NCBI GenBank assembly: GCA_030428565.1
Contig: JAUIDR010000014.1
Location: 1-64,000 of the forward strand
Direction: 5' to 3'
Origin: Alphaproteobacteria bacterium
Lineage (GTDB): Bacteria; Pseudomonadota; Alphaproteobacteria; UBA7985; JAUIBT01
DNA length: 64,000 nt
The first letter of the stretch is position 1; every line of letters starts with the position of its first letter. Below are positions 6,616 to 20,949 of this stretch, piece after piece. The notes under the pieces are model-generated. The model searched no databases. It saw only the letters and a program-made list of their open reading frames with translations, and was not told where the DNA came from. The translations under genes and the position numbers were made by a program.

Positions 6616-6663
6616 ATCCCGTCGCGAACGGGTTGCAATCCGCGCGAGTTAGGACGTGCGACT

Positions 6664-6767
6664 AGAGCGTCAGGCGCTGGATTAGCAACATCCCATCGGC
6701 TCTAGCTGACTGATATCTGACGCAAGTCTATGCTCACTCGTGTTGCCACTCGTTCGCGGCTTGCGCT
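6664..6767 (-). repeat. 104-bp dispersed structured repeat, copy R
   Basis: The reverse complement of this stretch aligns without gaps over 104 bp to the tandem copies at 19991-20198, with about 13 mismatches by my hand alignment. In repeat orientation it starts agcgcaagccgcgaacg and ends cagcgcctgacgctct. It contains the internal inverted pieces cgcaag/cttgcg. It begins 48 bp after the cobL stop. No open reading frame or transposase is associated. Confidence 0.9.
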
Positions 6768-6776
6768 AGACACAAC

Positions 6777-6807
6777 AAAGGGCCCGTCGTGATCGACCGG
6801 CCCTTTT
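6777..6807 (+). terminator. Rho-independent-type terminator, possibly bidirectional
   Basis: AAAGGGCC (6777-6784) pairs perfectly with GGCCCTTT (6799-6806) around a 14-nt loop. The plus strand continues TTTTAAAC and the minus strand continues into TTTGTTGTG. It lies between cobL and the converging small membrane protein gene and could end both transcripts. Confidence 0.65.
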
Positions 6808-6840
6808 AAACTTTCAAGGTCGTCGGACCCGCCAACCGGC

Positions 6841-7053
6841 TTACAAGCGCAGCGCGGCAACCACGGCCAATACGATTGAGATAACCAGCAAGGCCAAGCC
6901 AGTTGTCAGGCTGCCCGCAACGGTTGCGAAGAACAGAAACAGGGCCAGACCAATCAGCAGCAAGGCGCTGACAGTGGCAACGCGCCAGAAGCCCAAGAAG
7001 GTTTTCTTGTGGCCCGCGGGGGACAGTTCGTATTCAAGACTTTGCTCGCTCAT
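6841..7053 (-). CDS. Small two-helix membrane protein, possibly cytochrome oxidase subunit IV-like
   Basis: A 70-residue protein. A short polar N-terminus (MSEQSLEYELSPAGHKKTF) is followed by two hydrophobic helices (about 22-45 and 48-70). The pattern HKKTFLGFWRVATVSALLL before the first helix resembles the small aa3-type cytochrome oxidase subunit IV domain, but that domain has one helix and I cannot confirm it. GAGGAAGA lies just upstream of the start. No oxidase genes are nearby. Confidence 0.7.
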   Translation of the reverse strand: MSEQSLEYELSPAGHKKTFLGFWRVATVSALLLIGLALFLFFATVAGSLTTGLALLVISIVLAVVAALRL

Positions 7054-7151
7054 GAGGTCTTCCTCGCTTGTTAATTCGTTCCGGCACTGGCGCTTGTGAT
7101 GGGCGCATCACAGGTTTTGAGCTGCCGAGGTTGTGATCAATTGCTTCCTGA

Positions 7152-7757
7152 TTACCGCCAGATGGCTCTGCCGTCAATCAACTGAACTTGTTGTGCGGCA
7201 ACCTGCTTCAAGCACTCGGGATAGAGGGCATGTTCCAAGGCCAGAAGGCGGCTAGACAGGCTCTCCAGGCTCTCACGAGGCTCTAAGTGAAGGGCGCGCT
7301 GGTCGATAATCGGGCCGGAGTCGAGCCCCGAGTCGACAAAATGCACTGTGCAGCCGGTCACGCGCACCCTCGCGCGGTGGGCTTGGGCTTGCGCGTCGAG
7401 GCCGGGAAACGAGGGCAGCAAAGAGGGGTGGATGTTGAGCAAGCGGCCCTGCCATCGCTCGGTAAAGCCAGCGGTTAATAAACGCATGTAGCCCGCCAGG
7501 CAGACCAGGTCGATGCCGCGATCGGTGAGGGCACGATCCAAACGCGTGTCAAAGTCTGCGCGGCCCTCGCCTGGGCTGCGGGTCAGCGCCAGGGTGGGCA
7601 GGCCTTGATCGCGGGCCCAGTCGAGGCCGGGCGCATCGGCCTTATTGGAGGCCACCAATTCAATGCGCGCCGGAAAGTCTGGGTCTTGGCAGGCGCGGAC
7701 CAATGACTGCATGTTGCTGCCGCGCCCGGAAATCAAAATGGCAGTCGCGCGCTTCAT
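7152..7757 (-). CDS. purN: Phosphoribosylglycinamide formyltransferase
   Basis: A 201-residue GART enzyme that transfers formyl from 10-formyl-THF to GAR, the third step of purine synthesis. The start RATAILISGRGSNMQSL carries the phosphate-binding loop. LAGYMRLLTAGF and LLNIHPSLLPSFPGLDAQ contain the conserved Asn-His pair (INIHPSLLP motif), and VHFVDSGLDSGPII carries the catalytic-region Asp. It follows purM with a 4-bp gap on the minus strand, so it is translated from the same message. Confidence 0.96.
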   Translation of the reverse strand: MKRATAILISGRGSNMQSLVRACQDPDFPARIELVASNKADAPGLDWARDQGLPTLALTRSPGEGRADFDTRLDRALTDRGIDLVCLAGYMRLLTAGFTERWQGRLLNIHPSLLPSFPGLDAQAQAHRARVRVTGCTVHFVDSGLDSGPIIDQRALHLEPRESLESLSSRLLALEHALYPECLKQVAAQQVQLIDGRAIWR

Positions 7758-7761
7758 GCGA

Positions 7762-8844
7762 TCAGGCCGCGCTGTTCAAGCGGTCCAAGAAGCCGCTGAC
7801 GTCGACGCCAGAGCCATCGTGAAGCTCGCCAATGACGCTGGAACCTTGCCCGGCCTCACTAAGCGCAGCCTGTACGCATTGAACTTGGGCGGGGTCTACG
7901 ACCAGCACCATGCCGACGCCGCAGTTAAAAGTGGTTAGCCAATCACGCTCGCTCATGGTCGGGGCAAGGCTCGCCAACCAAGAAAAGACCGGCGGGATCG
8001 GCCAGGCCGAAGCATCCAGGCTGACGCCGATGCCTTCGGGCAGAACACGGGGGATATTTTCGATCAATCCGCCGCCGGTAATGTGCGACAGGGCTTTGAC
8101 ATGACCGGTTGTGCAGGCCGCCAGGCAGGACTTCACATAGAGCTGTGTCGGGCGCAGAAGGGCTTGGCCCAGGCTGGTCGCAGGCTGTTCTGGCGACTGC
8201 AATGCATCCGGGCAGGGGCCTGCGTAGTCGAAACCAGCATCCTCAACCAGCTTGCGCACCAGCGAGAAGCCATTCGAATGCAGGCCAGAAGATGGCAGAG
8301 CGATGATTTTATCCCCGGCATTCAGGGCGTCGATTTTGGGCAACAAAGCTTGGCGTTCGACCGCACCGACGGAAAAGCCCGCCAGGTCAAAATCGCCCGG
8401 CTGGTAGAGGCCCGGCATTTCCGCGGTCTCGCCCCCGATCAGGGCGCAGCCGCTGTCGATACAAGCTTGAGCGATGCCTTCAATGATGGTCTTGGCTGCC
8501 TGGACATCCAGCTTTGCACTGGCAAAATAGTCTAAGAAAAACAAAGGCTCAGCGCCCTGAACGACCAAGTCGTTAACGCACATGGCAACCAGGTCTTGGC
8601 CCAAGGTGTCGAACACGCCAGCCTCGATCGCCACCCTAAGCTTGGTGCCGACGCCATCGGTCGCGGCCACTAGCAAGGGGTCGGTGTAGCCGGTTTGTTT
8701 TAGATCGAACAGCCCGCCAAAGCCGCCTAGGCCCGATACGACGCCGGGGCGGTTACTGGCCTTAGCGGCGGGCTTGATGGCTTCAACCAAGGCATTACCC
8801 GCGTCAATATCGACACCGGCTTGGCGGTAGGCCTCACTTGACAT
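7762..8844 (-). CDS. purM: Phosphoribosylformylglycinamidine cyclo-ligase (AIR synthetase)
   Basis: A 360-residue enzyme of usual length that closes the imidazole ring of FGAM to AIR using ATP. The start SSEAYRQAGVDIDAGNALVE, GGFGGLFDL near residue 45, ATDGVGTKLRVA near 65 and GGETAEMPGLY near 139 are all family motifs, and HITGGGLIENIPRVLP is present in the C-terminal half. It is the promoter-proximal gene of purM-purN, diverging from the DUF2066 gene. The promoter should lie in 8845-8930. Confidence 0.97.
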   Translation of the reverse strand: MSSEAYRQAGVDIDAGNALVEAIKPAAKASNRPGVVSGLGGFGGLFDLKQTGYTDPLLVAATDGVGTKLRVAIEAGVFDTLGQDLVAMCVNDLVVQGAEPLFFLDYFASAKLDVQAAKTIIEGIAQACIDSGCALIGGETAEMPGLYQPGDFDLAGFSVGAVERQALLPKIDALNAGDKIIALPSSGLHSNGFSLVRKLVEDAGFDYAGPCPDALQSPEQPATSLGQALLRPTQLYVKSCLAACTTGHVKALSHITGGGLIENIPRVLPEGIGVSLDASAWPIPPVFSWLASLAPTMSERDWLTTFNCGVGMVLVVDPAQVQCVQAALSEAGQGSSVIGELHDGSGVDVSGFLDRLNSAA

Positions 8845-9020
8845 ATGCTCGCGACTCTCTTCCTTCAGACAGCGTGTGCGTTACAAATGAACGCGCTGAA
8901 TTACAAAACAAAAAAGGTCTACGAGCATTGTTGATCCTTCGCAAGGTGGCTGCGGCGCTGTTGTGGTCGCATCCGTGCGTTCAGCCATCCTCGAACTCTC
9001 CGACTGGAATCCAGCCGCGC

Positions 9021-10184
9021 GTGGCTCTAGTGCCGTTGTGGACGGCGTTTGTCCTTGGTCTTGCTTTGGCGGTGAGCCCGACGCCGGGCCCGCAGGGCAG
9101 CGCATGGGCGCAAGTCGAAGAAGAGGCGCACGATCCCTTATACTCCGTCGAGGGTCTTTTGGTGCGCGCGCTTGGGCGCAGTGGCCTTGAGGCGCGCGAA
9201 AAGGCCATGCGCTTTGGCCATATCTCGGCGCTGCGCCAAGTGGCCGAACGCTTGGTGCCAAAAGAGCAGTGGGGCAGCATTCCGACCCCCAGCGAACAGG
9301 AATTTGAGGCTATGGTCGTTGGCCTAGACGTGTCCGGTGAGCAGCAAGCCAACACATCTTACCTGGGGTTGATGTCTCTGCGATTTGATCCGGGCAAGTT
9401 GCATACCTTCTTGGCCGACAGCGGCATTGAAGTCTCGGGCCGTGCTGAAAAACCCGTGCTGTTGGTGCTGGTGTCAGAAGACACCAACGGCGAAGCCATT
9501 TTGTGGGATCCAGAAGCCGCTTGGCTGAGAGCCTGGCAGCCCTCGCCCCTGAAGGGCACGGTCCTACCCAGCACCATGATTGGCGGTGATTTGCAGGACC
9601 GCGAGATTCTGGATGCTACCAATGCGCTGGCGCCAACCCCCGCCATGTTGACCGCGCTTCGTGAGGCCTATCAGGCCGACGCTTTGCTCTATGCCAACGC
9701 GCGCGAACTTACCGGAACCGGCGCGGATATAGCGCGCTTGGAGGTGATCTTGCGTCAGGACGGCGACTTGCCAAACCTGCCGAGCCAAGTGGTCAGTTGT
9801 GAGCGCGAGCGAGAGGAGGCGGCGCGCGTCTTCTATCGCCGCTGTGCGGGTCAAGTGGCATCATTGGCCCTGGAGACATGGAAGTCTGAACACCGCCAGT
9901 CGGCTCTGGCCGAAAAGCGAGAAGAGATCCCGTCGGGCCAATTGCAGCGAATCCCCGTTTTCGCACTGGTCTTGGACCCCAGCGGCTTTGCTTTCATGCA
10001 ACAAAAGGTCTTGCAGGCGCCCAACGTGCGCGCCTTGTCTTTGATCGAACAACGCCAAAACGGCGCGATTGCCAATTTAGATTTTGTTGGTCAAGTCACG
10101 GATATCGTTCAGCAATTGCCGCAAGCGGGGGTCAATATCTTCCGCGATCAGGGTGTCATTTATTTGCAGTTCAATGGTCGATAG
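9021..10184 (+). CDS. DUF2066 domain-containing exported protein
   Basis: A periplasmic protein of unknown function. After a hydrophobic leader (VPLWTAFVLGLALAV, then AWAQV) the mature part begins with DPLYSVEGLLVRA, as in DUF2066 proteins, and contains GHISALRQVAERLVP. The C-terminal third has RVFYRRCAGQVASL and a closing VNIFRDQGVIYLQF. In alphaproteobacteria this family typically sits just before hdaA, as here, where the two overlap by 11 bp. The start is uncertain: I used the GTG at 9021, but the frame is open from 8838 and a TTG at 8931 with AAGG upstream is possible. Confidence 0.8.
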   Translation: MALVPLWTAFVLGLALAVSPTPGPQGSAWAQVEEEAHDPLYSVEGLLVRALGRSGLEAREKAMRFGHISALRQVAERLVPKEQWGSIPTPSEQEFEAMVVGLDVSGEQQANTSYLGLMSLRFDPGKLHTFLADSGIEVSGRAEKPVLLVLVSEDTNGEAILWDPEAAWLRAWQPSPLKGTVLPSTMIGGDLQDREILDATNALAPTPAMLTALREAYQADALLYANARELTGTGADIARLEVILRQDGDLPNLPSQVVSCEREREEAARVFYRRCAGQVASLALETWKSEHRQSALAEKREEIPSGQLQRIPVFALVLDPSGFAFMQQKVLQAPNVRALSLIEQRQNGAIANLDFVGQVTDIVQQLPQAGVNIFRDQGVIYLQFNGR

Positions 10185-10911
10185 CAACCAGCCCGACGAC
10201 AGCGACCCAGCACATGGCCCCCTGCCGGTTAGCCAAGGCGCGGGCCAACAGTTGCGCTTGCCATTGGCGCCCGGTCATGAGTTGGGTCTGGAAGACTTGG
10301 CACAAGGCCCCCACAATCTTAAAGCCTTGGCCCTGATCGAGGGCTGGCCCGTGGCCTGGCCCTTGCCATGGGCTGCGCTCTGGGGGCCTGCGGCCTGTGG
10401 TAAGAGCGCTCTGGCGCAAATCTGGGCCCGGCACAGCGGCGCTAAGATTTGGGATCTTGAGGCGTTGATCGCGGGAAGCCCTAGTCAGCGGCTGGGACAT
10501 TGCGTGCTGGATCTGGGCGCGAGTCCCGGCCTACCGCAAGCGGGCGAAGAACCCTTGTTTCACCTCATGAACAACCTGCGCGCGGCGGGATTTAGCCTGC
10601 TGCTGGTGGCCCGCCAGGCCCCGGCGCGCTGGTCAGTGCAGTTGCCCGACCTGGCCTCACGCCTGCGGGCGGTGCTGGCGGTCGAGATCGGCGAAGGCGA
10701 TCAAGCCTTTCTGGAGCAGCTCTTGGTCGCCTTGGCCGCTCAGTACGAACTTGAGATGCGCGCGGACGCGCGGGCCTATTTGATCCAGCGCTTGCCGCGT
10801 CAGGCGGCGGCCTGCCTGCGTTTGATTCAAATCTTGGCACAGCAAGCCTCGGTCGTCACCGTGCCGCAAGCGCGTTTGGCACTAAGGGCGCTGGAAACTG
10901 GCGACGGCTAG
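10174..10911 (+). CDS. hdaA: DnaA-related protein HdaA (regulatory inactivation of DnaA)
   Basis: A 245-residue AAA+ protein lacking the DNA-binding domain of DnaA. The start is taken as the ATG overlapping the end of the DUF2066 gene. QLRLPLAPGHELGLEDL resembles the clamp-binding N-terminus (QLPL-like). WAALWGPAACGKSALAQIW holds the Walker A loop (GxxxxGKS), and HCVLDLGA occupies the Walker B position with a weakened acidic pattern. LASRLRAVLAVEIG and RQAAACLRLIQIL match the sensor and lid regions. In Caulobacter, HdaA works with the sliding clamp to convert DnaA-ATP to DnaA-ADP. The function is inferred from family and neighbours. Confidence 0.88.
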   Translation: MVDSNQPDDSDPAHGPLPVSQGAGQQLRLPLAPGHELGLEDLAQGPHNLKALALIEGWPVAWPLPWAALWGPAACGKSALAQIWARHSGAKIWDLEALIAGSPSQRLGHCVLDLGASPGLPQAGEEPLFHLMNNLRAAGFSLLLVARQAPARWSVQLPDLASRLRAVLAVEIGEGDQAFLEQLLVALAAQYELEMRADARAYLIQRLPRQAAACLRLIQILAQQASVVTVPQARLALRALETGDG

Positions 10912-10924
10912 ACTTTCGTCCGAT

Positions 10925-11536
10925 CTAGGCGCGGCCGACGAAATGAGACAAGGTGCCGGGGTCTTTAACGCCCAGCTTGGCCATGGCCGCTTCCCATACG
11001 CTGCGGCGATCCAAGTGAAAGACCAGCGAAAAATCGGCTTCGACCAAGTTCCAAGAAGCCTGTGATAGCTCGTCTTCGAGCTGCCCGGCGCTCCATCCCG
11101 CATAGCCGAGCGCGACCAGGTGGTGGCGGGGGCCCGTGCCTTGGGCGATGCGCTTGAGCGTATCCAGCGAGGAGGAAAGCGCGAAGCCGCCGGGCACCAC
11201 GATATCGTCATCGCTGCTTTGCTCGTCCGAGTGAACGACGAAGCCGCGGCTCTCGGCGACCGGTCCGCCATTGAAGATTTCAAAATCTTTGTCCAGACCT
11301 TCGTCGTCGATTTCGAGCTGCTCGAGCATGCCTGTTAAGTTCAAGCCACCCATCGGCGCATTGACCACGATGCCCAATGCGCCGTCGTCGGTGTGGGCGC
11401 AAATCAAGATGGCGGCCCGCTCAAATCGGGTGTCATCCAATTGCGGCGTGGCCACCAGCAACTTTCCCGCCAAAGAATTTGGCGAGGGGGTCTGTCGGGG
11501 CGCGCGTTTGGCTTGATCAAAGAGTTTTTCTGGCAT
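10925..11536 (-). CDS. YqgE/AlgH family protein (DUF179)
   Basis: A 203-residue protein. After a polar N-terminus it reads LAGKLLVATPQLDDTRFERA, then LGIVVNAPMGGLNLTGML and FNGGPVAESRGFVVHS, all characteristic of the YqgE/AlgH fold. YAGWSAGQLEDEL near residue 146 is the family's strongest signature. The role is unknown; AlgH was first linked to alginate regulation in Pseudomonas. It converges with hdaA and diverges from the disulfide reductase gene. Confidence 0.93.
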   Translation of the reverse strand: MPEKLFDQAKRAPRQTPSPNSLAGKLLVATPQLDDTRFERAAILICAHTDDGALGIVVNAPMGGLNLTGMLEQLEIDDEGLDKDFEIFNGGPVAESRGFVVHSDEQSSDDDIVVPGGFALSSSLDTLKRIAQGTGPRHHLVALGYAGWSAGQLEDELSQASWNLVEADFSLVFHLDRRSVWEAAMAKLGVKDPGTLSHFVGRA

Positions 11537-11733
11537 GGGTAAAAGTTATAGGCCCCACAGAGCCGTGACAAGGGGTGATGCAAAGAGATTTGCATGCAAG
11601 CGCGTCAGGTCTTAGGTCTTGTCTAATCATGGCGACAGGTCAGGTTTACGGCTGCTGCGCGCATTCGCGACGCGATGTGCGGGTTGACGCCGCCGCTCCC
11701 CCGGCCTGTGCCCTTAAATCTTCGAGTCATTTT

Positions 11734-14118
11734 ATGCCCCGATTGCCCGTCCTTTTCAGTCTTCACAGTCGATACAGCCCGCATCTAGGTTGGTCCCCCG
11801 CCCGATTGGCGCAGAGCTTGGCGCAGAGCTTGGCGCAGAGCTTGGCGCTGGTCCCTAAACGGCTCCTAATACGGCTGCTTGGTTTGGCGCTCGCCGGCCT
11901 CTGGCTGGCTGGCGCTGGGCATGCGCAAATCTTGCCCTCAACGGGGCTGGGCGGGGCCGCAAGTTCTGGGTTTTCAACGAGCCAATCCGATGGTGGCGCC
12001 TTTGGTGATTGGGTGAAAGCCGAACAGTCGCGCTGGCGTTGGGTGGCGGCCAGCGATGCCGTTGGCGATCAGGACAGCTTGTTGCTGGGGCTCGAGGCTG
12101 AATTGCAGCCCGGTTGGAAGATCTATTGGCGCTCGCCTGGCGATGCCGGTCTGCCCCCGCAACTAAAGCCAGAACCCGATTCAAGCCTGACCCAGCTCGA
12201 CATGAGTTGGCCGGTACCGCACCGCTTCCAGACCTACGGCATTGATACCTTCGGCTATAAAGAACAAGTGCTGTTTCCGGTGCGCGCTTCGGTCGATGAT
12301 CCTGGCCAGCCGCAGCGTATTCACACAAACGTGAGCTTTTTGATCTGCGAGGAGATCTGTGTGCCGGGCCGCGTGCAAGTCGGGCTAGATTTGCCCGCCG
12401 GTCCCGCAAAGCCCAGCTTCGAGGCGCCCTTGATCGAAGAAGCGCTGTTGCAGGTGCCGGACCAAGGCCAACGCCACAGCATGGGGCTAACCGCCGTTGC
12501 CTTTGATGCCGTCGCTCTTGATTCTGGCCTCGACGAGGCCAAGGCACCCATCTTGACCTTGCAGCTTTCTAGTCGCGAGCCCTTGAGCGAGGCGCTGGAC
12601 GCCTTCGTCGAAGCCCCGCAAGGATGGCGCTTTGAACGGCCCCAAGTCACGCTGCTTGAGGGCGCGCGTGCCGCCATCTTGCGCATGGAGGGCTCGCCAC
12701 AGTTCGCAACGGTGCCGCCGATTGGTCTGGATGATTTGGCGGTAACCATTGCCGATGGACCGCGCGCTTTCGAAGCCCCGACGACGACGCTCAAGCTGTT
12801 GGCCAGCACAGAAGAGAGTGCGACCTTAGCCCGGCAAAAGCCGCGTCCGCCCAGTACGCCGATTTCCTTGGGGTTGGCGGGTGCTAGCGGTGGCCTGGCT
12901 TTGCTTGTCACCATGCTGGGAACGGCCTTGTTGGGTGGCTTTATCCTCAATCTCATGCCCTGCGTTCTGCCGGTTCTTTCGCTGAAGGTCTTGTCGGTGG
13001 TCAAGGCTCAGTCCATGCCGCTGCACCATGCGCGCTTGGGCTTCTTGGCGACAGCCGTTGGCATCATCTTTTCTTTTCTGGTGCTCGGCGCGGGGGCGAT
13101 TGCGCTCAAGCTGGCGGGTGCAGCGGTCGGCTGGGGGATGCAGTTCCAACAGCCCTTGTTCTTGTTGTTCATGATCGCGCTGTTGATTTTCTTTGCGCTC
13201 AATCTGGTCGGCCTGTTCGAGCTGCGTTTGCCTGCAGGTTTGGCGAGCCTGGGCAACGTGGGAACAGGCGCATCCGGCGGACCTAGCCAGAGCTTGGTCG
13301 GGCACTTCTTCACAGGCGCTTTTGCGACCTTGTTGGCAACGCCTTGTTCGGCGCCCTTCTTGGGCACGGCGCTGGGTTTTGCGCTGACCCGGGGCGCCGG
13401 TGAAATCTTGCTGATTTTCTTTGTGCTTGGTCTCGGTATGGCCGCGCCTTATCTGCTGATCGCGGCTTTCCCTAGCCTCGCACGCATGCTGCCAAAGCCG
13501 GGTGGCTGGATGTTGTGGCTGAAGGCCATCATGGGTTTGGCGCTGTTGGGCACCGCGATATGGTTGCTCAGCGTTTTGCAATTGCAATTGGGCTGGGCCG
13601 CCAGCCTGACGGCAGCGGGCCTGATCGTCATGGGTGCGGGTCTGTTTGCGCTGCGCCGGTTGCCAAGTCTCAAATTGGTGCCAGCTTTGGTTCCTAGCCT
13701 GCCTTTGGTGGCGCTGTTGGTCCTGCCGGCCTTCTTCAATCCTGTGGTCAGCCCTGATGTTCAGGCCAGCAGCAAGGGCTACGCGCCCTTTGATTTGGCG
13801 GCGATTGACGCCTCGCTAGCCCAGGGGCAGACGGTGTTCGTTGATGTCACCGCGCAGTGGTGCGTGACCTGCAAAATCAATAAATTACGCGTGCTTGAGA
13901 CCGACGAGACCAAGGAACTTTTCGCCAGCAATCAGGTGCAGTTGCAGCAGGCCGATTGGACCAATCATAGCGATGAAATCGCCAATTACCTGGCCAGCTT
14001 TCAGCGTTTTGGCATTCCCTTCAACGTGGTCTACGGGCCCAGCGCGCCTTCGGGTATAGCGCTGCCAGAACTCTTGAGCTATGAAGCAGTAGAAAGCGCC
14101 ATTCGTCAGGCCCTCTAG
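11734..14118 (+). CDS. DsbD/ScsB-type thiol:disulfide interchange protein
   Basis: A 794-residue membrane protein predicted to carry electrons from cytoplasmic thioredoxin to periplasmic substrates. In order: a signal peptide (RLLIRLLGLALAGLWLAG...HAQ); a periplasmic N-domain (about 90-370) with SFLICEEICVPGRVQ, whose Cys pair resembles the ScsB-type DsbD alpha domain; about eight membrane helices (about 375-700) with NLMPCVLPVLSLK and LATPCSAPFLGTAL, the paired membrane cysteines; and a C-terminal thioredoxin domain with TAQWCVTCK (CxxC). I took the ATG at 11734; the frame is open back to 11575. A peroxiredoxin follows 60 bp downstream, which fits a redox role. Confidence 0.92.
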   Translation: MPRLPVLFSLHSRYSPHLGWSPARLAQSLAQSLAQSLALVPKRLLIRLLGLALAGLWLAGAGHAQILPSTGLGGAASSGFSTSQSDGGAFGDWVKAEQSRWRWVAASDAVGDQDSLLLGLEAELQPGWKIYWRSPGDAGLPPQLKPEPDSSLTQLDMSWPVPHRFQTYGIDTFGYKEQVLFPVRASVDDPGQPQRIHTNVSFLICEEICVPGRVQVGLDLPAGPAKPSFEAPLIEEALLQVPDQGQRHSMGLTAVAFDAVALDSGLDEAKAPILTLQLSSREPLSEALDAFVEAPQGWRFERPQVTLLEGARAAILRMEGSPQFATVPPIGLDDLAVTIADGPRAFEAPTTTLKLLASTEESATLARQKPRPPSTPISLGLAGASGGLALLVTMLGTALLGGFILNLMPCVLPVLSLKVLSVVKAQSMPLHHARLGFLATAVGIIFSFLVLGAGAIALKLAGAAVGWGMQFQQPLFLLFMIALLIFFALNLVGLFELRLPAGLASLGNVGTGASGGPSQSLVGHFFTGAFATLLATPCSAPFLGTALGFALTRGAGEILLIFFVLGLGMAAPYLLIAAFPSLARMLPKPGGWMLWLKAIMGLALLGTAIWLLSVLQLQLGWAASLTAAGLIVMGAGLFALRRLPSLKLVPALVPSLPLVALLVLPAFFNPVVSPDVQASSKGYAPFDLAAIDASLAQGQTVFVDVTAQWCVTCKINKLRVLETDETKELFASNQVQLQQADWTNHSDEIANYLASFQRFGIPFNVVYGPSAPSGIALPELLSYEAVESAIRQAL
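11809..11844 (+). repeat. 12-bp x3 tandem repeat inside the DsbD-like gene
   Basis: Three perfect copies of gcgcagagcttg, in frame, encode AQSL three times in the N-terminal leader before the signal-peptide core. The unit is four codons, so copy number can change without a frameshift. Confidence 0.9.
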
Positions 14119-14178
14119 GGGGGCTCAAGACCAAGGCTAGAAAAGCTTTCTTTTCTTCTATTTGCGATTGGAGCCTCC

Positions 14179-14664
14179 ATGATTGCTGTTGGTGATCGCC
14201 TGCCCGACCTGCCCCTTATGCACTTTGACCAAGGGCCTGCCGCCTTTGATCTGCCGAGCCACTTGGCGGGCAGTACCATCATTTTGATCGGGGTGCCGGG
14301 TGCCTTCACGCCGACCTGTAGCGAACGCCACCTGCCGGGCTTCATCGCGCTGGCTGACAAGCTGAAACAAGCAGGCGTCGATGAGATCATTTGCCTATCG
14401 GTCAACGATCCACACGTTATGCGCGCCTGGTCGAAGAGCATGAACGGCGAGGATCTGACTTTTGTTTCAGATTGGGATGCTTCTTTCGTGCGCGCTATGG
14501 GCTTGGAGGTGGATCGCCACTCGCAAGGCATGGGCTGGCGCGCGGGCAGATTTGCTCTGGTGGTTCGCGATGGCGTGGTGGTTCATATCGGCAAAGAAGA
14601 AGAGACCAAAGATCTGACCTTCTCATCCGCCGAAGCCATTTTACAGGTCTTGCAGCAGGCTTAG
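14179..14664 (+). CDS. Peroxiredoxin, Prx5/AhpE-like group
   Basis: A 161-residue thiol peroxidase that reduces hydroperoxides. The start MIAVGDRLPDLPLMHFD is followed by VPGAFTPTCSERHLPGF, which holds the peroxidatic Cys in the PxxxTxxC pattern of the Prx5 subfamily. LSVNDPHVMRAWSKSM matches the conserved Prx5 segment. No clear resolving Cys is seen, so it may be a 1-Cys or glutathione-dependent enzyme. It lies between the disulfide reductase and a glutathione S-transferase. Confidence 0.93.
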   Translation: MIAVGDRLPDLPLMHFDQGPAAFDLPSHLAGSTIILIGVPGAFTPTCSERHLPGFIALADKLKQAGVDEIICLSVNDPHVMRAWSKSMNGEDLTFVSDWDASFVRAMGLEVDRHSQGMGWRAGRFALVVRDGVVVHIGKEEETKDLTFSSAEAILQVLQQA

Positions 14665-14686
14665 GGCCGCCTAGATTGGTGGATGA

Positions 14687-14760
14687 TCTCTGGCGAGCAG
14701 CGCTTGCTTTGGCTCTGGTGGCTGGCTAGCTTGAGGGCCTCGTCAATCAATCGCCAGAGA
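14687..14760. repeat. 10-bp perfect inverted repeat with a 54-nt loop
   Basis: TCTCTGGCGA (14687-14696) is the exact reverse complement of TCGCCAGAGA (14751-14760). The pair frames most of the gap between the peroxiredoxin stop and the GST start. No T-tract follows, so it is not a normal terminator. Confidence 0.6.
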
Positions 14761-14769
14761 GCATAAGCT

Positions 14770-15408
14770 ATGACCTTGACCCTCTACCATGCGCCTAGAA
14801 CGCGCGCATTTACAGCCTTGTGGTTGCTTGAAGAATTGGGCCAGCCGTTCGAGGTGCATAGCTTTGATTTGGCCAGCGGCTATCATCGCAGCCCTGAATA
14901 CCTCGCGCTCAATCCCATGGGTAAGGTGCCCATGTTGATGGATGGCGATACGCCGGTCAGTGAAATGGGGGCCATCGCGCTTTATTTGTTGGAGCGCTTT
15001 CCTGATAGCGGCCTTGCACCTGCGGTCGGTGATCCTAGGCGCGCCGAGTTCTTACGCTGGATGTTCTTTGTGCCGGGTATCGTCGAACCAGCTTTGGCGC
15101 AAAAATTCTTTAGCTGGGAGCCCCCCCGTGAGACCGTCGCTTGGGGCTCTTATGATCTTATGATCGAGGTGGCAGAAAAGGGCCTAGAAACCGGTCCCTG
15201 GCTGCTGGGCGACGCCTTTAGCGCGGCTGACGTGGTTGTGGGCGCTGCCATGCGTTTTGGCGTCTTGTTTGGCGCCATCGACAGCCCCGCGATCAAGGCC
15301 TATGTCGAGCGCCTTAGCGCGCGACCGGCTTTCGAACGAGCCACTAGTCGCGAAGCGAGCTTGGCCGAAATTAGCGCCCCAAAGGGCGAAGAGCAGGCTG
15401 CACCTTAG
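14770..15408 (+). CDS. Glutathione S-transferase family protein
   Basis: A 212-residue two-domain GST. The thioredoxin-like N-domain (1-80) starts LTLYHAPRTRAFTALWLLEE, has NPMGKVPMLMDGD with the cis-Pro, and ends VSEMGAIALYLLERF, which carries the glutathione gamma-Glu-binding E(S/M) turn. The helical C-domain has WLLGDAFSAADVVVG, the N-capping box motif. It probably conjugates or reduces small electrophiles in the cytoplasm; the substrate is unknown. It lies in a redox-themed run with the peroxiredoxin upstream and an SDR 71 bp downstream. Confidence 0.92.
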   Translation: MTLTLYHAPRTRAFTALWLLEELGQPFEVHSFDLASGYHRSPEYLALNPMGKVPMLMDGDTPVSEMGAIALYLLERFPDSGLAPAVGDPRRAEFLRWMFFVPGIVEPALAQKFFSWEPPRETVAWGSYDLMIEVAEKGLETGPWLLGDAFSAADVVVGAAMRFGVLFGAIDSPAIKAYVERLSARPAFERATSREASLAEISAPKGEEQAAP

Positions 15409-15479
15409 GCCAGCACCGCCTGCAGTGAGCAAGCCGCAACATACGACGCTTATACAAACAAAACAGGAGACGAGAGGAT

Positions 15480-16250
15480 ATGGCGCTGCCCGATCTGACC
15501 GGCATGACCGTCTTTATTACTGGAGCTTCACGCGGCATTGGCGCGGCGGCTGGTGAGGCTTTCGCTCAGGCGGGGGCCAAGGTGGCCCTTGCGGCGCGTT
15601 CGTCGGGCGAGATTGAGGCTCTGGCTAGCCGCTTACGCAAGCAGGGTCATCAAGCCCTGGCTCTGGCTTGCGATGTAACCGACTATTCGGCCGTGCAAGC
15701 GGCAGTAGGCCAGGCTGAGGCAGCCTTGGGGGCCATTGACATTCTGGTCAACAACGCGGGCTTGATCGAGCCCATCGGCCGCTTTGCCGACATTGCGCCC
15801 GCCGACTGGGCACGCGTGATCGAGGTCAACGTTATGGGTGTCTCCAACACCACGCACGCGGTGCTGACCGGCATGCTAGAGCGCGGGCAGGGGACCATTA
15901 TCAATATCTCCTCGGGCGCGGCCACCGGTACGCTGGAGGGCTGGACCCACTATTGCGCGTCGAAAGCGGCGGTGCTGTCTCTCACGCGCAACCTTGACGC
16001 TGAATACCGCGATCAAGGCATCCGTGTCATGGGGCTCTCGCCTGGGACAGTGGCGACCCACATGCAGGTCGTCATCAAGGCCAGCGGCATTAATTCGGTC
16101 TCTAAGCTGGACCCCAGCGTTCATAAGCCCACGGCCTGGGTCGGGCGGGAGCTGGTGTGGTTGGCGGGCCCGGCCGGCGATGCCTACCTGGGCCAGGACT
16201 TTGCCATTCGAGGCGAAGCAGCCCTGCGCGAGGCGGGGATCTTAGACTAG
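15480..16250 (+). CDS. SDR-family NAD(P)-dependent oxidoreductase (classical)
   Basis: A 256-residue classical SDR. FITGASRGIGAAAGEAFAQ is the TGxxxGIG nucleotide motif, LVNNAGLIEP is the NNAG motif, NISSGAA carries the catalytic Ser, and YCASKAAVLSLTRNL carries YxxxK, so the full active site is present, unlike the SDR at 220-924. GPAGDAYLGQDFAIRG lies in the C-terminal cofactor-binding region. GGAG with good spacing precedes the ATG. The substrate is unknown. It follows the GST gene in the same direction. Confidence 0.93.
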   Translation: MALPDLTGMTVFITGASRGIGAAAGEAFAQAGAKVALAARSSGEIEALASRLRKQGHQALALACDVTDYSAVQAAVGQAEAALGAIDILVNNAGLIEPIGRFADIAPADWARVIEVNVMGVSNTTHAVLTGMLERGQGTIINISSGAATGTLEGWTHYCASKAAVLSLTRNLDAEYRDQGIRVMGLSPGTVATHMQVVIKASGINSVSKLDPSVHKPTAWVGRELVWLAGPAGDAYLGQDFAIRGEAALREAGILD

Positions 16251-16329
16251 TTCACCTGTGCTTCGTGAGCGGACCAAGGGGCGCGTTGGCCAATCGTTAG
16301 AGTAAATCGACCGATTGCGCCCAATGCCC

Positions 16330-16708
16330 AACACAAGGCAATCGCACCGCCCTTGGGCATGGAGGTCGGTGACACCGGCTTTGCTCAATTTCACATGGTT
16401 GTGTCGGGCGAAGCGGCGGTCTTACGCTCTGCCCTGCGCGCGCAAGTGAGCAACGTTGGTTTTCTGGCAAGCCTGCGCGAGCCGCGTTTGCGGCTTTGTC
16501 TGGATCATATCCATCGGGCCTGCCCCAATACCCCTAGTTTAGAAGAGCTAGCGCGCACGGCAGGCATGTCGCGTTCTGCCCTGGCGCAGAGCAGAGCGTA
16601 GAGGGTGTCGGCTTGAGCTTTGGTTATCATTCGGCGGCGGCATTTTCGCGGGCTTTCAAAGCCATGTACGGCCAGACACCCTCAGAATATCGCGGCGCGG
16701 CGGCGTAG
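16330..16708 (+). pseudogene. Decayed AraC-family transcriptional regulator (cupin_6 type)
   Basis: Two blocks of an AraC-family regulator survive in different frames. The first includes a shortened cupin part (QFHMVVSGEAAVL) joined directly to LREPRLRLCLDHIHRACP and LEELARTAGMSRSALA, the first helix-turn-helix. After a frame change and a deletion near 16595, the second block reads GYHSAAAFSRAFKAMYGQ and TPSEYRGAAA, the second helix-turn-helix, to a TAG at 16706. The cupin core, the interdomain part and the linker helix between the two HTH motifs are missing. Classical AraC proteins of this type are about 300 residues; no more than about 120 codons remain here. Confidence 0.8.
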
Positions 16709-16803
16709 AGACGCGGCGCAGCCAGTTCGCGCGTCAGGGGGCTTGCCGCTTTGCCAGCAGTTCGGCCAATCAAACCTGGCAAGGCGTGAAACCGGTCAGG
16801 CGC

Positions 16804-17229
16804 TTAAGTCATCAAGAAAGCTCTTACTTCGTCAGCGCTGTCGCAGACTTTCGCGCTGACATCCTTGCCGAACTTTGCAAGCGTATTGGCCTGCCAGTCG
16901 GCTACCCATCCAACATCTTGACCCGTCTCTGGCAGAGGCAGGATCAAAACAAATTTTCGAAGGGGCGAATTTTGAATTTCGGATCGAAAATCATCGCTGC
17001 TGACCCATTCATAGTCTTTGTCAGACAGCGCGTGGGGAGAGGTGGAGGCGTCCGCCACCCAATGTAAAACGTGGTGCGCGCGGACGTAATCCAGGGCCGC
17101 AAGCACCGCGTCTTTGACGCGGGTACCTTCGTCGTACTCGCTAAACCACTTCAGATAGACCGCCTTCAGTTCCGCACGATAGGTCACCGTTACCAAACCG
17201 TGAGCCAAATAAATGATTTTTTCGTCCAT
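16804..17229 (-). CDS. Hypothetical protein
   Basis: A 141-residue cytoplasmic-looking protein of unrecognised family. It starts MDEKIIYLAHGLVTVTYRAE and continues with KWFSEYDEGTRVKDAVL and VLHWVADASTSP. The length and alternation of strands and helices are reminiscent of small STAS- or SpoIIAA-like proteins that carry a conserved aromatic-rich core, but I cannot place it. I prefer the ATG at 17229 because AGGGA precedes it by six bases; another ATG lies six codons upstream at 17247. It converges with the AraC pseudogene and follows mmsA on the same strand. Confidence 0.7.
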   Translation of the reverse strand: MDEKIIYLAHGLVTVTYRAELKAVYLKWFSEYDEGTRVKDAVLAALDYVRAHHVLHWVADASTSPHALSDKDYEWVSSDDFRSEIQNSPLRKFVLILPLPETGQDVGWVADWQANTLAKFGKDVSAKVCDSADEVRAFLMT

Positions 17230-17294
17230 GACCGGTCCCTGGACCATTCCTTGCGGATGACAACATTTGTCGGTGGTCGGGACTCTAGCTGATC

Positions 17295-17382
17295 CTCCGG
17301 ACGATGACTAGGAACACACATCCTAAGGCGATAGGCCTTGCAGTTGGCCTCAAGCTGGGTGCAAATCCATCATCGTCCGGAG
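17295..17382. repeat. 13-bp perfect inverted repeat with a 62-nt loop
   Basis: CTCCGGACGATGA (17295-17307) is the exact reverse complement of TCATCGTCCGGAG (17370-17382). The element fills most of the gap between mmsA and the hypothetical gene at 16804. The internal part has the smaller pairing aaggc/gcctt. There is no T-tract. It could be a miniature mobile element remnant, an operator pair or an RNA structure. Confidence 0.7.
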
Positions 17383-17407
17383 TCTTATCGTCAGCGTGGC
17401 GCTGGTC

Positions 17408-18913
17408 TTAGATATCAGACGAGCGCTTGAAGTTGAACTGACCCATAGCCGTTTGAGCATTGGGGTAGCGCGCCATGACGTTCTTCTGGCGGGTCCAGAA
17501 TAAGAGGCCGTCCTTACCGAACATGGGTAGGTCGCCAAAGATCGAGGCCTTCCAGCCACCGAAGGAGTGCCAAGCGGTCGGAACGGGGATCGGCACGTTG
17601 ATGCCCAGCATGCCCACTTCGACGTTTTCAGCGAAGTCGCGGGCCAGCGCGCCGTTCTGGGTGAACAGAGCAACACCGTTGCCATAGAGGTGGTTGGTGG
17701 CCAGATCGCGAGCTTGCTCGTAGTCGTTAGCGCGCACGACAGACAGCACCGGGCCGAAAATCTCGTCCTTATAGATGCTCATGTCGGGCGTTACTTTGTC
17801 GAACAGGCTGCCGCCCAGGAAGTAACCGCCTTCGTAGCCCTGCGGAGCCTTGAAGCCGCGACCGTCCAGCACCAGCTCAGCGCCTTCTTCAACGCCCTTG
17901 GCGATGTAGCCATTAACGCGATCGAAGGCGGGTTGGTTGACCAGCGGGCCCATTTCCACGCCTTCAGCGTTGCCCGGACCGATTTTCAGCGCTTCGATGC
18001 GTGGGACCATGGCTTCGATCAGCTTGTCCGCGGTCTCTTCGCCGACGGGAACGGCGACCGAGATGGCCATGCAGCGCTCGCCAGCGGCCCCATATGCCGA
18101 GGCCAGCAGGGCGTCAGCGGCTTGCTCCATGTTGGCATCGGGCATGATGATCATGTGGTTCTTGGCGCCGCCCAGAGCCTGAACGCGCTTGCCATTGGCC
18201 CAACCGGTTGAGCTGACGTGTTGCGCGATGGGGGTCGAGCCCACAAAGCTCACCGCCTTTACGTCGGGGTGGGTCAACAGGCCGTCAACGGCTTCCTTAT
18301 CGCCGTGCAGCACGTTGAAAACACCGTCAGGAATGCCGGCCTCTTTGACAAGATCAGCCAGCAGCAGTGAGGCAGAAGGGTCACGCTCGGACGGCTTTAG
18401 GACGAAGGTGTTACCGCAGGTCGCCGCCATGGGGAACATCCACAAGGGGATCATGATGGGGAAGTTGAAGGGTGTGATGCCCGCAACAACGCCCAGAGGC
18501 TTGCGCATAGAGAACTGGTCCATGCCGGTTGCGATTTGGCTGTCGTAGCGTCCTTCCATCATCTGGGGCATGGAGCAGCAAAATTCGACGACTTCAGCGC
18601 CGCGCGCAATCTCACCTGCGGCGTCGTCCAACACCTTGCCGTGTTCTTCAGAAACGATCTTGGCGAAAGCATCAACGTTGTCTTGCAGCAACTCGAGCAA
18701 TTTGAACATGTGACGGGCTCGACGGGCGACCGGCATGTTTGACCACGCGGGGAAAGCAGCCTTAGCCGAAGCGACAGCGGCCTCCAGGTCGGCTTTGTCA
18801 CCCAGGGGAACTTGGCGAATGACTTGACCCAAAGCAGGGTTGTAAATGTCCGACATGCGCTGAGACGCACCGCGCACGCGCTGACCGTTGATGTAATGCA
18901 GAACTTCTTCCAT
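17408..18913 (-). CDS. mmsA: CoA-acylating methylmalonate-semialdehyde dehydrogenase
   Basis: A 501-residue aldehyde dehydrogenase of the MmsA group. The enzyme oxidises methylmalonate or malonate semialdehyde to propionyl- or acetyl-CoA with NAD+, in valine and inositol catabolism. The start EVLHYINGQRVRGASQRMSD matches the family. GVVAGITPFNFPIMIPLWM is the NAD-binding segment with the catalytic Asn, VSFVGSTPIAQHV is the cofactor loop, and GAAGERCMAISVAV carries the catalytic Cys. The ending MARYPNAQTAMGQFNFKRSS is typical of MmsA. It diverges from a lysR gene and shares an operator-like dyad with it. Its context suggests it takes the aldehyde made by the cluster at 20-27 kb. Confidence 0.95.
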   Translation of the reverse strand: MEEVLHYINGQRVRGASQRMSDIYNPALGQVIRQVPLGDKADLEAAVASAKAAFPAWSNMPVARRARHMFKLLELLQDNVDAFAKIVSEEHGKVLDDAAGEIARGAEVVEFCCSMPQMMEGRYDSQIATGMDQFSMRKPLGVVAGITPFNFPIMIPLWMFPMAATCGNTFVLKPSERDPSASLLLADLVKEAGIPDGVFNVLHGDKEAVDGLLTHPDVKAVSFVGSTPIAQHVSSTGWANGKRVQALGGAKNHMIIMPDANMEQAADALLASAYGAAGERCMAISVAVPVGEETADKLIEAMVPRIEALKIGPGNAEGVEMGPLVNQPAFDRVNGYIAKGVEEGAELVLDGRGFKAPQGYEGGYFLGGSLFDKVTPDMSIYKDEIFGPVLSVVRANDYEQARDLATNHLYGNGVALFTQNGALARDFAENVEVGMLGINVPIPVPTAWHSFGGWKASIFGDLPMFGKDGLLFWTRQKNVMARYPNAQTAMGQFNFKRSSDI

Positions 18914-18982
18914 GGGATTTCCTCGACTTTCCTCGCGAAGGGACGGGCGTGCCCATCCTGTTTGACCGCAACATAAAGCGTG

Positions 18983-19018
18983 CGGATATCGAATAATATA
19001 GATAATAAGGGATATCCG
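18983..19018. promoter_or_regulatory. Operator-like dyad between mmsA and lysR
   Basis: CGGATATC (18983-18990) and GATATCCG (19011-19018) form a perfect 8-bp inverted repeat around an AT-rich 20-bp centre (gaataatatagataataagg). LysR-type regulators often bind such dyads in the region between their own gene and the divergent target. The AT-rich centre could also hold a -10 element. Confidence 0.5.
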
Positions 19019-19048
19019 ATCTCCATATTTGGTGAATGATCTGGGTCA

Positions 19049-19945
19049 ATGACGGGGGCTGAAGGCGTGAATTGGGAGAACTTGAAGTATTTTCTGGCGG
19101 TCGCTCGCGAAGGGCAATTCTTAGCCGCTGCCAAGCGTATGAAGGTTGGACAGGCCACCTTGAACAGGCGCATATCGGCGCTGGAGGAGGATTTGGGCGC
19201 CAAGTTGTTTGAACGCTCGACCAGTGGCTGTCGTTTGACGGCGATGGGCCAAGAGTTCTTGAGCCACGCTGAGCGGGTGGAGGCTGAAGCCTTGCGCATG
19301 CAGCGCTCGCGCGGGCGACGTCAGGGCGAGGTCGAGGGCGTGCTGCGCATCGGGGCGCCTGATGGCTTTGGTGTGGCCTTTTTGGCGGGTAAGTTGGGAC
19401 GACTTAAACAGCGCCATCCGGGACTTGTCGTTCAACTCGTGCCCGTGCCGCGTGCATTCTCTTTGGCACAGCGTGAAGCCGATATCGCGGTGACTGTAAG
19501 TCGGCCGGCCCGCGGTCGCCTTTTGATGAAAAAGCTCACCGACTATGGCCTTGGGCTCTATGCAGCGCGCTCCTATTTGAAGCGCACTCCAGCCCCCGGC
19601 CAGGTCGAAGCGCTGATCGAGCATCCACACATCGGCTATGTGGAAGACCTGATCTATGCACCGGAATTGGATTTTTCGCGGGAATTGCCGGTCGCTTGGC
19701 CGGTCTCGATCGAGGTCTCGGGGGCGCTGGGGCAGTTTGAGGCGGTGCGCTCTGGGGCCGGGATTGGCATCTTGCACCGCTTTATGGCCGATCCCGATCC
19801 AGAGTTGGTGCGCGTTCTGCCTGAAATCGACATCCAACGCAGCTATTGGACCGTCTGGCACGAGAGCTTGCGCGATAGCGCGCGCATCCAAGCCGCTGTC
19901 ACCTTTTTGGATGATATCGTGGGTGAAGCGCGCGCTGCCTTTTGA
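19049..19945 (+). CDS. LysR-family transcriptional regulator
   Basis: A 298-residue regulator. The N-terminal winged helix-turn-helix reads NWENLKYFLAVAREGQFLAA, then KVGQATLNRRISALEEDLGAKLFER. The C-terminal effector domain (about 95-290) includes GVLRIGAPDGFGVAFLAGKL and HPGLVVQLVPVP. The start may be the ATG at 19049 or a GTG six codons later. It diverges from mmsA and lies near the racemase/ThDP/DadA/TRAP genes, so it probably controls one or both sides; the effector is unknown. Confidence 0.92.
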   Translation: MTGAEGVNWENLKYFLAVAREGQFLAAAKRMKVGQATLNRRISALEEDLGAKLFERSTSGCRLTAMGQEFLSHAERVEAEALRMQRSRGRRQGEVEGVLRIGAPDGFGVAFLAGKLGRLKQRHPGLVVQLVPVPRAFSLAQREADIAVTVSRPARGRLLMKKLTDYGLGLYAARSYLKRTPAPGQVEALIEHPHIGYVEDLIYAPELDFSRELPVAWPVSIEVSGALGQFEAVRSGAGIGILHRFMADPDPELVRVLPEIDIQRSYWTVWHESLRDSARIQAAVTFLDDIVGEARAAF

Positions 19946-19990
19946 GGCTCGGCTCAGGCCCGCCCCGCAAGCGATCGCGCGTGGATGACC

Positions 19991-20198
19991 AGCGCAAGCC
20001 GCGAACGCGTGGCAATACGAGCGAGCATGGACTTGCGTCAGAAGACAGTCAGCTAGAGCGGATGGGCTATTGCTACACCAGCGCCCGACGCTCTAGCGCA
20101 AGCCGCGAACGCGTGGCAATACGAGCGAGCATGGACTTGCGTCAGAAGACAGTCAGCTAGAGCGGATGGGCTGTTGCTACACCAGCGCCCGACGCTCT
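19991..20198 (+). repeat. Two tandem copies of the 104-bp structured repeat
   Basis: Copy 1 is 19991-20094 and copy 2 is 20095-20198. They differ at one position only (A at 20069, G at 20173). A third copy, inverted and about 87% identical, is at 6664-6767. Each copy contains cgcaag...cttgcg and gccgcg...cgcgtggc pairings. A 9-bp inverted repeat, GCTAGAGCG (20052-20060) with CGCTCTAGC (20089-20097), spans the junction between copies. Copy 2 ends on the stop codon of the racemase gene on the other strand. No good open reading frame runs through it. Confidence 0.92.
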
Positions 20199-20949
20199 AG
20201 TCCAGCGCCCAAACGGGTGGACGCAAGGCCGACTGAAACCAACACACCGCCGAATAGATGGAAAAAACCGGAAGGCCAGTCGCCAGCTGGACGGCGCGGG
20301 CATAGGGCATCATGTTGGTACACTCCAGAACAATCGCCCCCAGCTCTGGGTGCGCGCGTTGAAAGGCCGTGGCGGCCGCAACCAGGTCACGCGCGGCGGC
20401 CGTGATGTCCATCTGTGGCGCGTTGTCCAGGATGGCGCGCGTGAATTCTTCGCCGTCCTCGGTTCCCCACAGCGGCGTGTCCTGCGCCAGTCCCGCAGCT
20501 TCAAGGTGGGCGGGCGTCATGCTGGCCTTTGAGATGGTCAGCACGCCCACGCGTTTTCCCGCTGGCAAACTGGCCTGAACCAAAGGCACTTGCATCAGCG
20601 AGGAGGTGAGCACCGGCACGGGCAAGGCAGCTTGCAGCTCCCTTTGGTAGAGGGCCAAAAACCCGCAATTGGTGGTGATGCCATCGACTCCATCAGCGAT
20701 GAGCGCGTGCGCCGCGTCAATGAAAAGGTCTAGTAGACCTTCGGCACCTTTTCGCACTACGCGGTCCGGGCTGGCCGAGCGAACAATCTTGTAGTGGACC
20801 GGAAAGGGCCAGGTCTCAGCATTTCCCATATCGCCTGGAATGCGTGGGAATTGGGCTTCGAGCATCAGGATGCCAATGCTGGCGCCGTACAGCGCTTTCC
20901 CGCCCGCAACGACCCGGGGGATTTCCCTATCTGGTAAGTTATTTCTCAT
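20197..20949 (-). CDS. Asp/Glu/hydantoin racemase superfamily protein
   Basis: A 250-residue protein of the Asp/Glu racemase fold, which includes aspartate and hydantoin racemases, maleate isomerase and arylmalonate decarboxylase. Two Cys in the expected active-site positions are visible: GITTNCGFLALYQ (about residue 95) and IVLECTNMMPYARA (about residue 210). GKRVGVLTISKASMTP begins the second half. It starts MRNNLPDREIPRVVAGGKAL. It is divergent from the ThDP enzyme with 100 bp between starts. Its stop overlaps the end of the 104-bp repeat. It may racemise or isomerise the substrate of the neighbouring pathway. Confidence 0.85.
   Translation of the reverse strand: MRNNLPDREIPRVVAGGKALYGASIGILMLEAQFPRIPGDMGNAETWPFPVHYKIVRSASPDRVVRKGAEGLLDLFIDAAHALIADGVDGITTNCGFLALYQRELQAALPVPVLTSSLMQVPLVQASLPAGKRVGVLTISKASMTPAHLEAAGLAQDTPLWGTEDGEEFTRAILDNAPQMDITAAARDLVAAATAFQRAHPELGAIVLECTNMMPYARAVQLATGLPVFSIYSAVCWFQSALRPPVWALD

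Follow-up and report, generated by a model that had tools for sequence, protein, structure and literature searches.

A two-armed 104-bp intergenic repeat of an alphaproteobacterial genus, probably a non-autonomous element of the IS630 group

The 64,000-nt window analysed here (positions 1 to 64,000 of contig JAUIDR010000014.1, assembly GCA_030428565.1, from an alphaproteobacterium of the lineage UBA7985; JAUIBT01) contains three copies of a 104-bp repeat, one at 6664-6767 on the minus strand and two in tandem at 19991-20094 and 20095-20198 on the plus strand, exactly where the initial annotation had placed them. The repeat is very probably a miniature inverted-repeat transposable element (MITE) of the IS630 (Tc1/mariner-like) group of insertion sequences (IS), non-autonomous and built of two structured arms; its mobilisation by an IS630 transposase is what we infer from sequence comparison. 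The mobile unit would measure about 102 bp, run from G to C and be flanked by a duplicated TA within a YTAR target, mostly CTAG. A transposase of the IS630 type, acting in trans, would recognise the YTAGAGC-type ends, cut at the TA and reinsert the element at a new YTAR site. The match between its ends and those of IS630 elements also hints at the way in which bacterial repeats of a long-known class may spread.

Within the window, the two tandem copies differ at a single base (1/104; 99.04% identity), as first described. The inverted copy aligns with 20095-20198 without gaps, again as described, and differs at 12 of 104 positions (88.46% identity) rather than at about 13; when the own genome was searched with 20094-20198 as the query, this match reached an E value of 4.2e-33, far beyond chance. 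The genome to which the window belongs (G000; 3.5 Mb in 114 contigs, 99.2% complete, with the window as contig C100) holds 44 copies by BLAST. A repeat model (R3; 108 positions) was derived from 18 copies in G000 and G001, the latter being, together with G002, one of two other genomes of the same genus. At E <= 1e-4 it matches 80 times in G000, 36 times in G001 and 64 times in G002, and not at all in eight other genomes of the order. In a class-wide sample, taken under strict filters with 13 scored candidates per genome, 7 of 289 genomes and 5 of 224 genera gave matches at the same threshold. A pattern scan of named genomes, from which own-genome records may have been left out, gave 49 stretches; R3 then yielded 52 matches at E <= 0.01, with relatives of the repeat in uncultured Alphaproteobacteria, Elstera litoralis, Belnapia and Insolitispirillum. 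The further copies that the initial annotation had anticipated are hence present in the genome, in the genus and in some other lineages.

The ends of the copies are well defined. Among the 44 copies, the base preceding the left TA is C or T in 43 and the base following the right TA is G or A in all 44, and beyond these YTA(R) ends no flank position is conserved. Comparison of G000 with G002 provides three loci in filled and empty form, with a single YTAG where the site is empty and YTA(R) at both ends where it is filled. An array on contig C102 of G000 sits at the CTAG stop codon of the preceding gene (...KILTARLV stop), where G002 has ...KILTARLT stop and a single CTAG; one copy of G002 lies at the gene stop codon GACTAG, for which the empty form in G000 is GATTAG; and for another G002 copy the corresponding site in G000 reads TTCTAG. 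These sites show that YTAR serves as the target, in the manner expected of a TA duplication within it, and give a positive answer to the initial annotation's question of a target-site duplication. At CTAG sites duplications of TA, TAG and CTAG look the same; TA or TAG is favoured because one and the same copy often has a different Y at its left and right ends. No exact empty site could be found for the window copies, since G002 is too diverged at copy 1 and synteny at copies 2 and 3 is broken in both relatives. Three further sites are apparently common by descent, namely the uvrB stop codon in G000 and G001 (L034/L065), L037/L091 and L209/L079.

The 104-bp repeat has no transposase gene of its own, and the candidate transposase lies elsewhere in the genome. 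The IS630-family domain DDE_3 (PF13358) has six matches in G000, none of them at a repeat copy itself, one in G001 and one below the cut-off in G002. The IS630 element of G001 carries ACTAGAGCGTTTTCC at both ends and encodes its transposase in two overlapping frames (DDE_3 E 1e-29). The IS630 of G000 is interrupted by contig ends; its termini (left, L308, L309 and L194; right, L299, L303 and L305) all start with CTAGAGC, and 20 of 25 bases are the same on the left as on the right. Eight IS630 relatives, sampled from 958 matching alphaproteobacterial plasmid records, add to this picture: seven have TAGAGC at both ends, while in the eighth the right end alone was seen to carry it. Six of the seven carry YTAGAGC at both ends, and the left end of the remaining one (L318) is ATAGAGC.

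The likeness extends past the heptamer in distant copies of the repeat, of which 37 entered the comparison after cut, tandem and some further copies had been left out. At the right end, 8.4 of the 11 bases that follow the heptamer match an IS630 terminus, compared with 5.2 after shuffling (0/1000) and 4.7 at 46 YTAG[AC]GC sites of the window that served as a control; at the left end the figures are 6.7 vs 4.5, and since related copies are not independent none of these figures is a probability. The copy at L158 shares TAGAGCGTTTTCCGTTC with the IS630 of G001 (once over 17 bases). The ends and the target fit a transposase of the IS630 (DDE_3) family, which agrees with the earlier view of the repeat as MITE-like. 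At L033 and L040 we observed a short common extension beyond the right end, AACAAAGCRCGCCTAG, with an IS630 at that CTAG in L040; this is possibly a subfamily with a different right end.

Internally, the element consists of two arms that meet at one CTAG: arm A of 64 bp, which leads from YTAG to CTAG at 64-bp spacing, and arm B of 40 bp, which reads CTAGAGCG...CGCTCTAG at 40-bp spacing. Taken from YTAG-type end to YTAG-type end, the element is slightly longer than the 104-bp unit, and the window contains the following features:

6662..6769, minus strand: copy 1, complete element bounded by CTAG on either side
6702..6769, minus strand: arm A of copy 1, both CTAGs included
6662..6705, minus strand: arm B of copy 1, both CTAGs included
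6612..6661, plus strand: degenerate inverted arm A beside arm B of copy 1, giving the order A-B-A' (a weak match)
19989..20096, plus strand: copy 2, complete element; its left end has mutated to CCAG, its right CTAG also belongs to copy 3
20053..20056, no strand: internal CTAG, A/B joint of copy 2
20093..20200, plus strand: copy 3, full element with CTAG at both ends
20157..20160, no strand: internal CTAG, A/B joint of copy 3
20197..20949, minus strand: neighbour gene of 250 aa; its TAG stop codon is part of the right CTAG of copy 3

The degenerate arm A is weakly supported by model R1 (E 0.004 for the genome, 18.7 bits), and R3 matches across 6612-6705. A 153-codon frame that ends at copy 1 was discarded as spurious.

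The arms also occur in other arrangements. Contig C102 of G000 has four full copies in tandem, contig C180 of G002 has tandem units of arm A alone followed by a full copy, and in Insolitispirillum peregrinum (NZ_FTOA01000005.1; L253:3796-4556) 14 arm A units of 55 bp each follow one another head to tail without arm B. At L204 the final 15 bp of arm B are present three times. At L194 an IS630 left end (126/127 bases identical to L309) directly adjoins arm B at CTAG, the other side lying past the contig end, so that the IS630 apparently entered the A/B joint there. The internal CTAG probably acts as a joint for arm shuffling, the arrangements seen being AB in tandem, A in tandem, A-B-A' and the IS630 beside arm B.

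The arms show covariation between lineages. In the 18 copies from G000 and G001, 9 of 30 pairs carry changes on both sides and the covariation score is 0.172 vs 0.126 for shuffled alignments (0/500 as high), with slid versions reaching at most 0.078. In 27 arm-A sequences taken from different lineages, 8 of 13 pairs are doubly changed and the score is 0.334 vs 0.162 shuffled (0/500), with slid versions at 0.102 or less; related sequences may beat shuffles even without structure, and the slid versions are the better control. Stem columns in the G000 copies are less variable than other columns (3.6% vs 8.6%). Together these sequence comparisons support the maintenance of arms A and B through compensatory changes between lineages, and the repeat deserves the description as structured that it had initially received, though the G000 copies by themselves show no covariation. 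A search of the window against Rfam found no family above the gathering threshold, in line with the initial failure to recognise a named family, and in four loci bearing copies of the genus or of other lineages Rfam found tRNAs only.

The genomic setting of the repeat is equally distinctive. Genes were called with a custom, unpublished codon-usage gene caller trained on the window. The copies of G000 were counted as 68 insertions, that is, 66 single copies and two arrays, with each tandem array counted once and the degenerate matches at L194, L197, L198 and L204:853-960 left out. None of the 68 lies inside a gene, which confirms the location between genes initially proposed; 42 have convergent, 23 codirectional and 1 divergent neighbours, and 2 lie at contig edges. 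The convergent setting (42 of the 66 scored insertions) is enriched when compared with YTAR sites outside genes in the window, 13/84 of which are convergent (p about 1e-9), and with CTAG sites (4/31; p about 3e-6); the gene pairs of the window are convergent in 9 cases, codirectional in 38 and divergent in 10. In G002, where 29 loci were used, with 25 distinct copies out of the 64 matches, 16 are convergent, 5 codirectional, 3 at an edge and 1 inside a gene.

In 25 of the 68 insertions of G000 the terminal TAG doubles as the stop codon of a well-scoring gene, on both sides in 3 of them, and the same is true for a neighbouring gene in 11 of the 25 distinct copies of G002. This sharing arises because the CTAG target is often a stop codon outside gene bodies: CTAG is depleted in the window, with 103 occurrences where base composition predicts 228, and of the 33 CTAG sites that fall outside gene bodies 14 are stop codons. 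A preference for stop codons over and above that for CTAG was rejected, as 25/68 is close to what CTAG targeting predicts from the 14/33. TAG is also the commonest stop codon of the window (28 of 56 called stops, 15 of them CTAG). The convergent bias is not explained by stop-codon sharing and seems due to selection or to an additional preference. The surviving copies probably sit at gene 3' ends, mainly convergent ones, because CTAG is depleted and, outside gene bodies, often a stop codon, and because an insertion that hits a gene or promoter would presumably be lost. The repeat illustrates how little harm a mobile element need do as it spreads: the tetranucleotide that it uses is depleted in the genome yet frequent among stop codons, and even convergent stop codons that overlap are preserved. 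We speculate that the arms are kept as bidirectional hairpins which, at 3' ends, do no harm or bring a benefit.

Several observations weigh against an origin from IS630. The repeat of G000 and the IS630 of the same genome share little more than YTAGAGC at their ends, and past the heptamer they agree only slightly (right 5.6 vs 4.6, left 5.9 vs 4.3); the long end matches are those between repeats of other lineages and the IS630 of G001 or of plasmids. The left end of the repeat is mostly YTAGCGC, and YTAG[AC]GC occurs by chance 38 times in the window outside the copies. The left and right ends of the G000 IS630 lie on different contigs, and we infer their origin from a single element; the IS630 beside arm B could reflect a common target only. 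Transposases of the IS5 type (PF13586) are present in the genus as well, and of two IS5-like elements whose inverted repeats were read one starts with CTAG, not CTAGAGC. Informative empty sites number only three, with poor flanking alignment at two. As for the arms, the count of doubly changed pairs in the 18 copies of two genomes is unremarkable (reached by 67/500 shuffles), the consensus structure has no change on both sides at any of 19 pairs when the G000 copies are taken alone, and a double-strand transposase has no obvious need of such arms. Finally, the 66 G000 copies have a median pairwise identity of 84%, and the dispersed copies are at most 94.4% alike even between nearest neighbours, so that recent jumping is not shown in G000. 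Judging from these identities, movement in this genome is apparently not recent, the tandem duplication excepted.

Little recent movement would suit a host structured RNA or terminator-like element spread by recombination or gene conversion and not as a transposon, and so would the compensatory changes in the arms and the strong preference for convergent gene ends; slippage could produce the tandem arrays. We nevertheless consider this explanation unlikely, since it does not accommodate the fixed YTAR ends within unrelated flanks, the presence and absence of copies at orthologous sites, the IS630-like termini or the mosaic arrangements. An element of the repetitive extragenic palindromic type (REP or REPIN) or of the IS200/IS605 type, with two subterminal hairpins and single-strand processing by a Y1 transposase (RAYT, the REP-associated tyrosine transposase), would explain the two covarying hairpins, the position at gene 3' ends and the tandem copies. 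This is highly unlikely, however: the Y1 domain PF01797 has no match in G000, complete as it is to 99.2%, vs matches in 5 of 14 control genomes, and the initial label REP, insofar as it implies a RAYT, does not hold. Elements of the IS200/IS605 type insert without target duplication, to which the YTA(R) at both ends of filled sites and the single YTAG of empty ones are a misfit.

IS711 of Brucella belongs to the IS5 group. Least probable of all is a MITE of an IS5-group transposase with a YTAR target, comparable to IS711 and the Bru-RS repeats: IS711 is reported, in the accessible parts of two papers, with a YTAR target and 103-bp palindromic repeats (PMC3163539, PMC2266754), PF13586 genes occur in the genus and the L294 inverted repeats start with CTAG, but past this CTAG the inverted repeats of L294 and L298 are unlike the ends of the repeat, and the IS630 elements have CTAGAGC and longer matches. 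The inverted repeats of these other IS read ACACCCGCATTAAC at L298 (contig C61 of G000) and CTAGGGCCTGTGGACATTCA at L294 (contig C31 of G001), the latter starting with CTAG.

Among known systems, the element RUP of Streptococcus pneumoniae (107 bp) is the closest in the mechanism proposed for an IS630-derived repeat. In the portion of a review that was available, RUP is similar in size, non-coding, present in many intergenic copies and associated with a TA-containing target, and its ends resemble those of IS630-Spn1, an IS630 element (PMC2229807). That portion of its description includes no two-arm layout with an internal CTAG, and the host is unrelated (PMC2229807). The resemblance to Bru-RS1 and Bru-RS2 (103-105 bp) lies in size, palindromic character and intergenic position, as far as excerpts of three papers describe them (PMC2267715, PMC3163539, PMC2266754). 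Bru-RS1 is given there as an insertion site of IS711 at YTAR (PMC3163539, PMC2266754), that is, an IS that uses YTAR inserts into it, much like the IS630 beside arm B at L194. The IS concerned is a different one, IS711, and the likeness is drawn from descriptions, not from sequence.

For the layout, the nearest counterpart is found in Caulobacter. The CerM-associated intergenic repeats (CIR) of this genus were reportedly described by Chen and Shapiro in 2003. As far as the same review describes them, these are intergenic repeats of about 110 bp with two arms, a linker and GANTC at the terminal loop, for whose mobility mechanism more information is needed (PMC2229807). The 104-bp repeat has the same layout of about 110 bp, two arms and a linker, and shares with CIR the two long inverted-repeat arms, the intergenic position, the abundance and the occurrence in Alphaproteobacteria (PMC2229807). 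The GANTC loop, a defining feature of CIR, is absent from the G000 repeat, and the two are likened by description, not by sequence. No GANTC was found in the arm-A loop of the 68 G000 insertions, and only 3 of them have it anywhere in the element. Of 51 distinct copies from other lineages, some of them retrieved with a pattern biased towards one arm-A sequence, 32 carry GANTC in the loop of arm A, at position 24. A further difference is that the review, in the part available, leaves the mechanism of CIR mobility open, whereas the ends and the target found here point to IS630 (PMC2229807). The present case offers this question a concrete and testable partner, namely IS630 with its TAGAGC ends and YTAR target.

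The RIME elements of Rhizobium and Sinorhizobium, reportedly described by Osteras in 1995, are said to contain two palindromes. They resemble the repeat as intergenic mosaic palindromic elements of alphaproteobacteria, to judge from brief mentions in two papers (PMC2573895, PMC2245857). In 250 kb of the 1.68-Mb plasmid pSymB of S. meliloti, neither R3 (E <= 1) nor a linker pattern of rhizobial repeats found a match, which leaves the idea that the family is the common rhizobial repeat unsupported as regards homology. A two-arm element does occur in pSymB (1000001-1050000; L287:25544), which starts with CTAGAGCG, has GAATC in its linker and ends in CTAG; its layout is similar to that of the repeat, it has no R3 match and it is at best a candidate RIME.

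A literature search, with most subscription journals outside its coverage, found no paper linking two-arm repeats to IS630. We tentatively raise the possibility, which we regard as somewhat doubtful at this stage, that the two-arm repeats of Alphaproteobacteria (CIR, and perhaps also RIME and Bru-RS) are derived from IS630, settle at YTAR sites of gene ends and are kept as structured bidirectional 3'-end modules; the GANTC of arm A could then be an ancient trait, present in some members of the class and lost in this genus. Covarying arms in what appears to be a double-strand transposon also raise the question of what purpose the hairpins serve.

Two minor observations concern the window itself. 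The segment between the inverted copies (6664-20198) is rearranged in the relatives: in G001 the outer flanks lie 16.7 kb apart on contig C12 and the inside on C36 and C48, and in G002 the match breaks at copies 2 and 3 (C95 vs C58). At 50379-50453 the window contains four direct repeats with 15-bp spacing.

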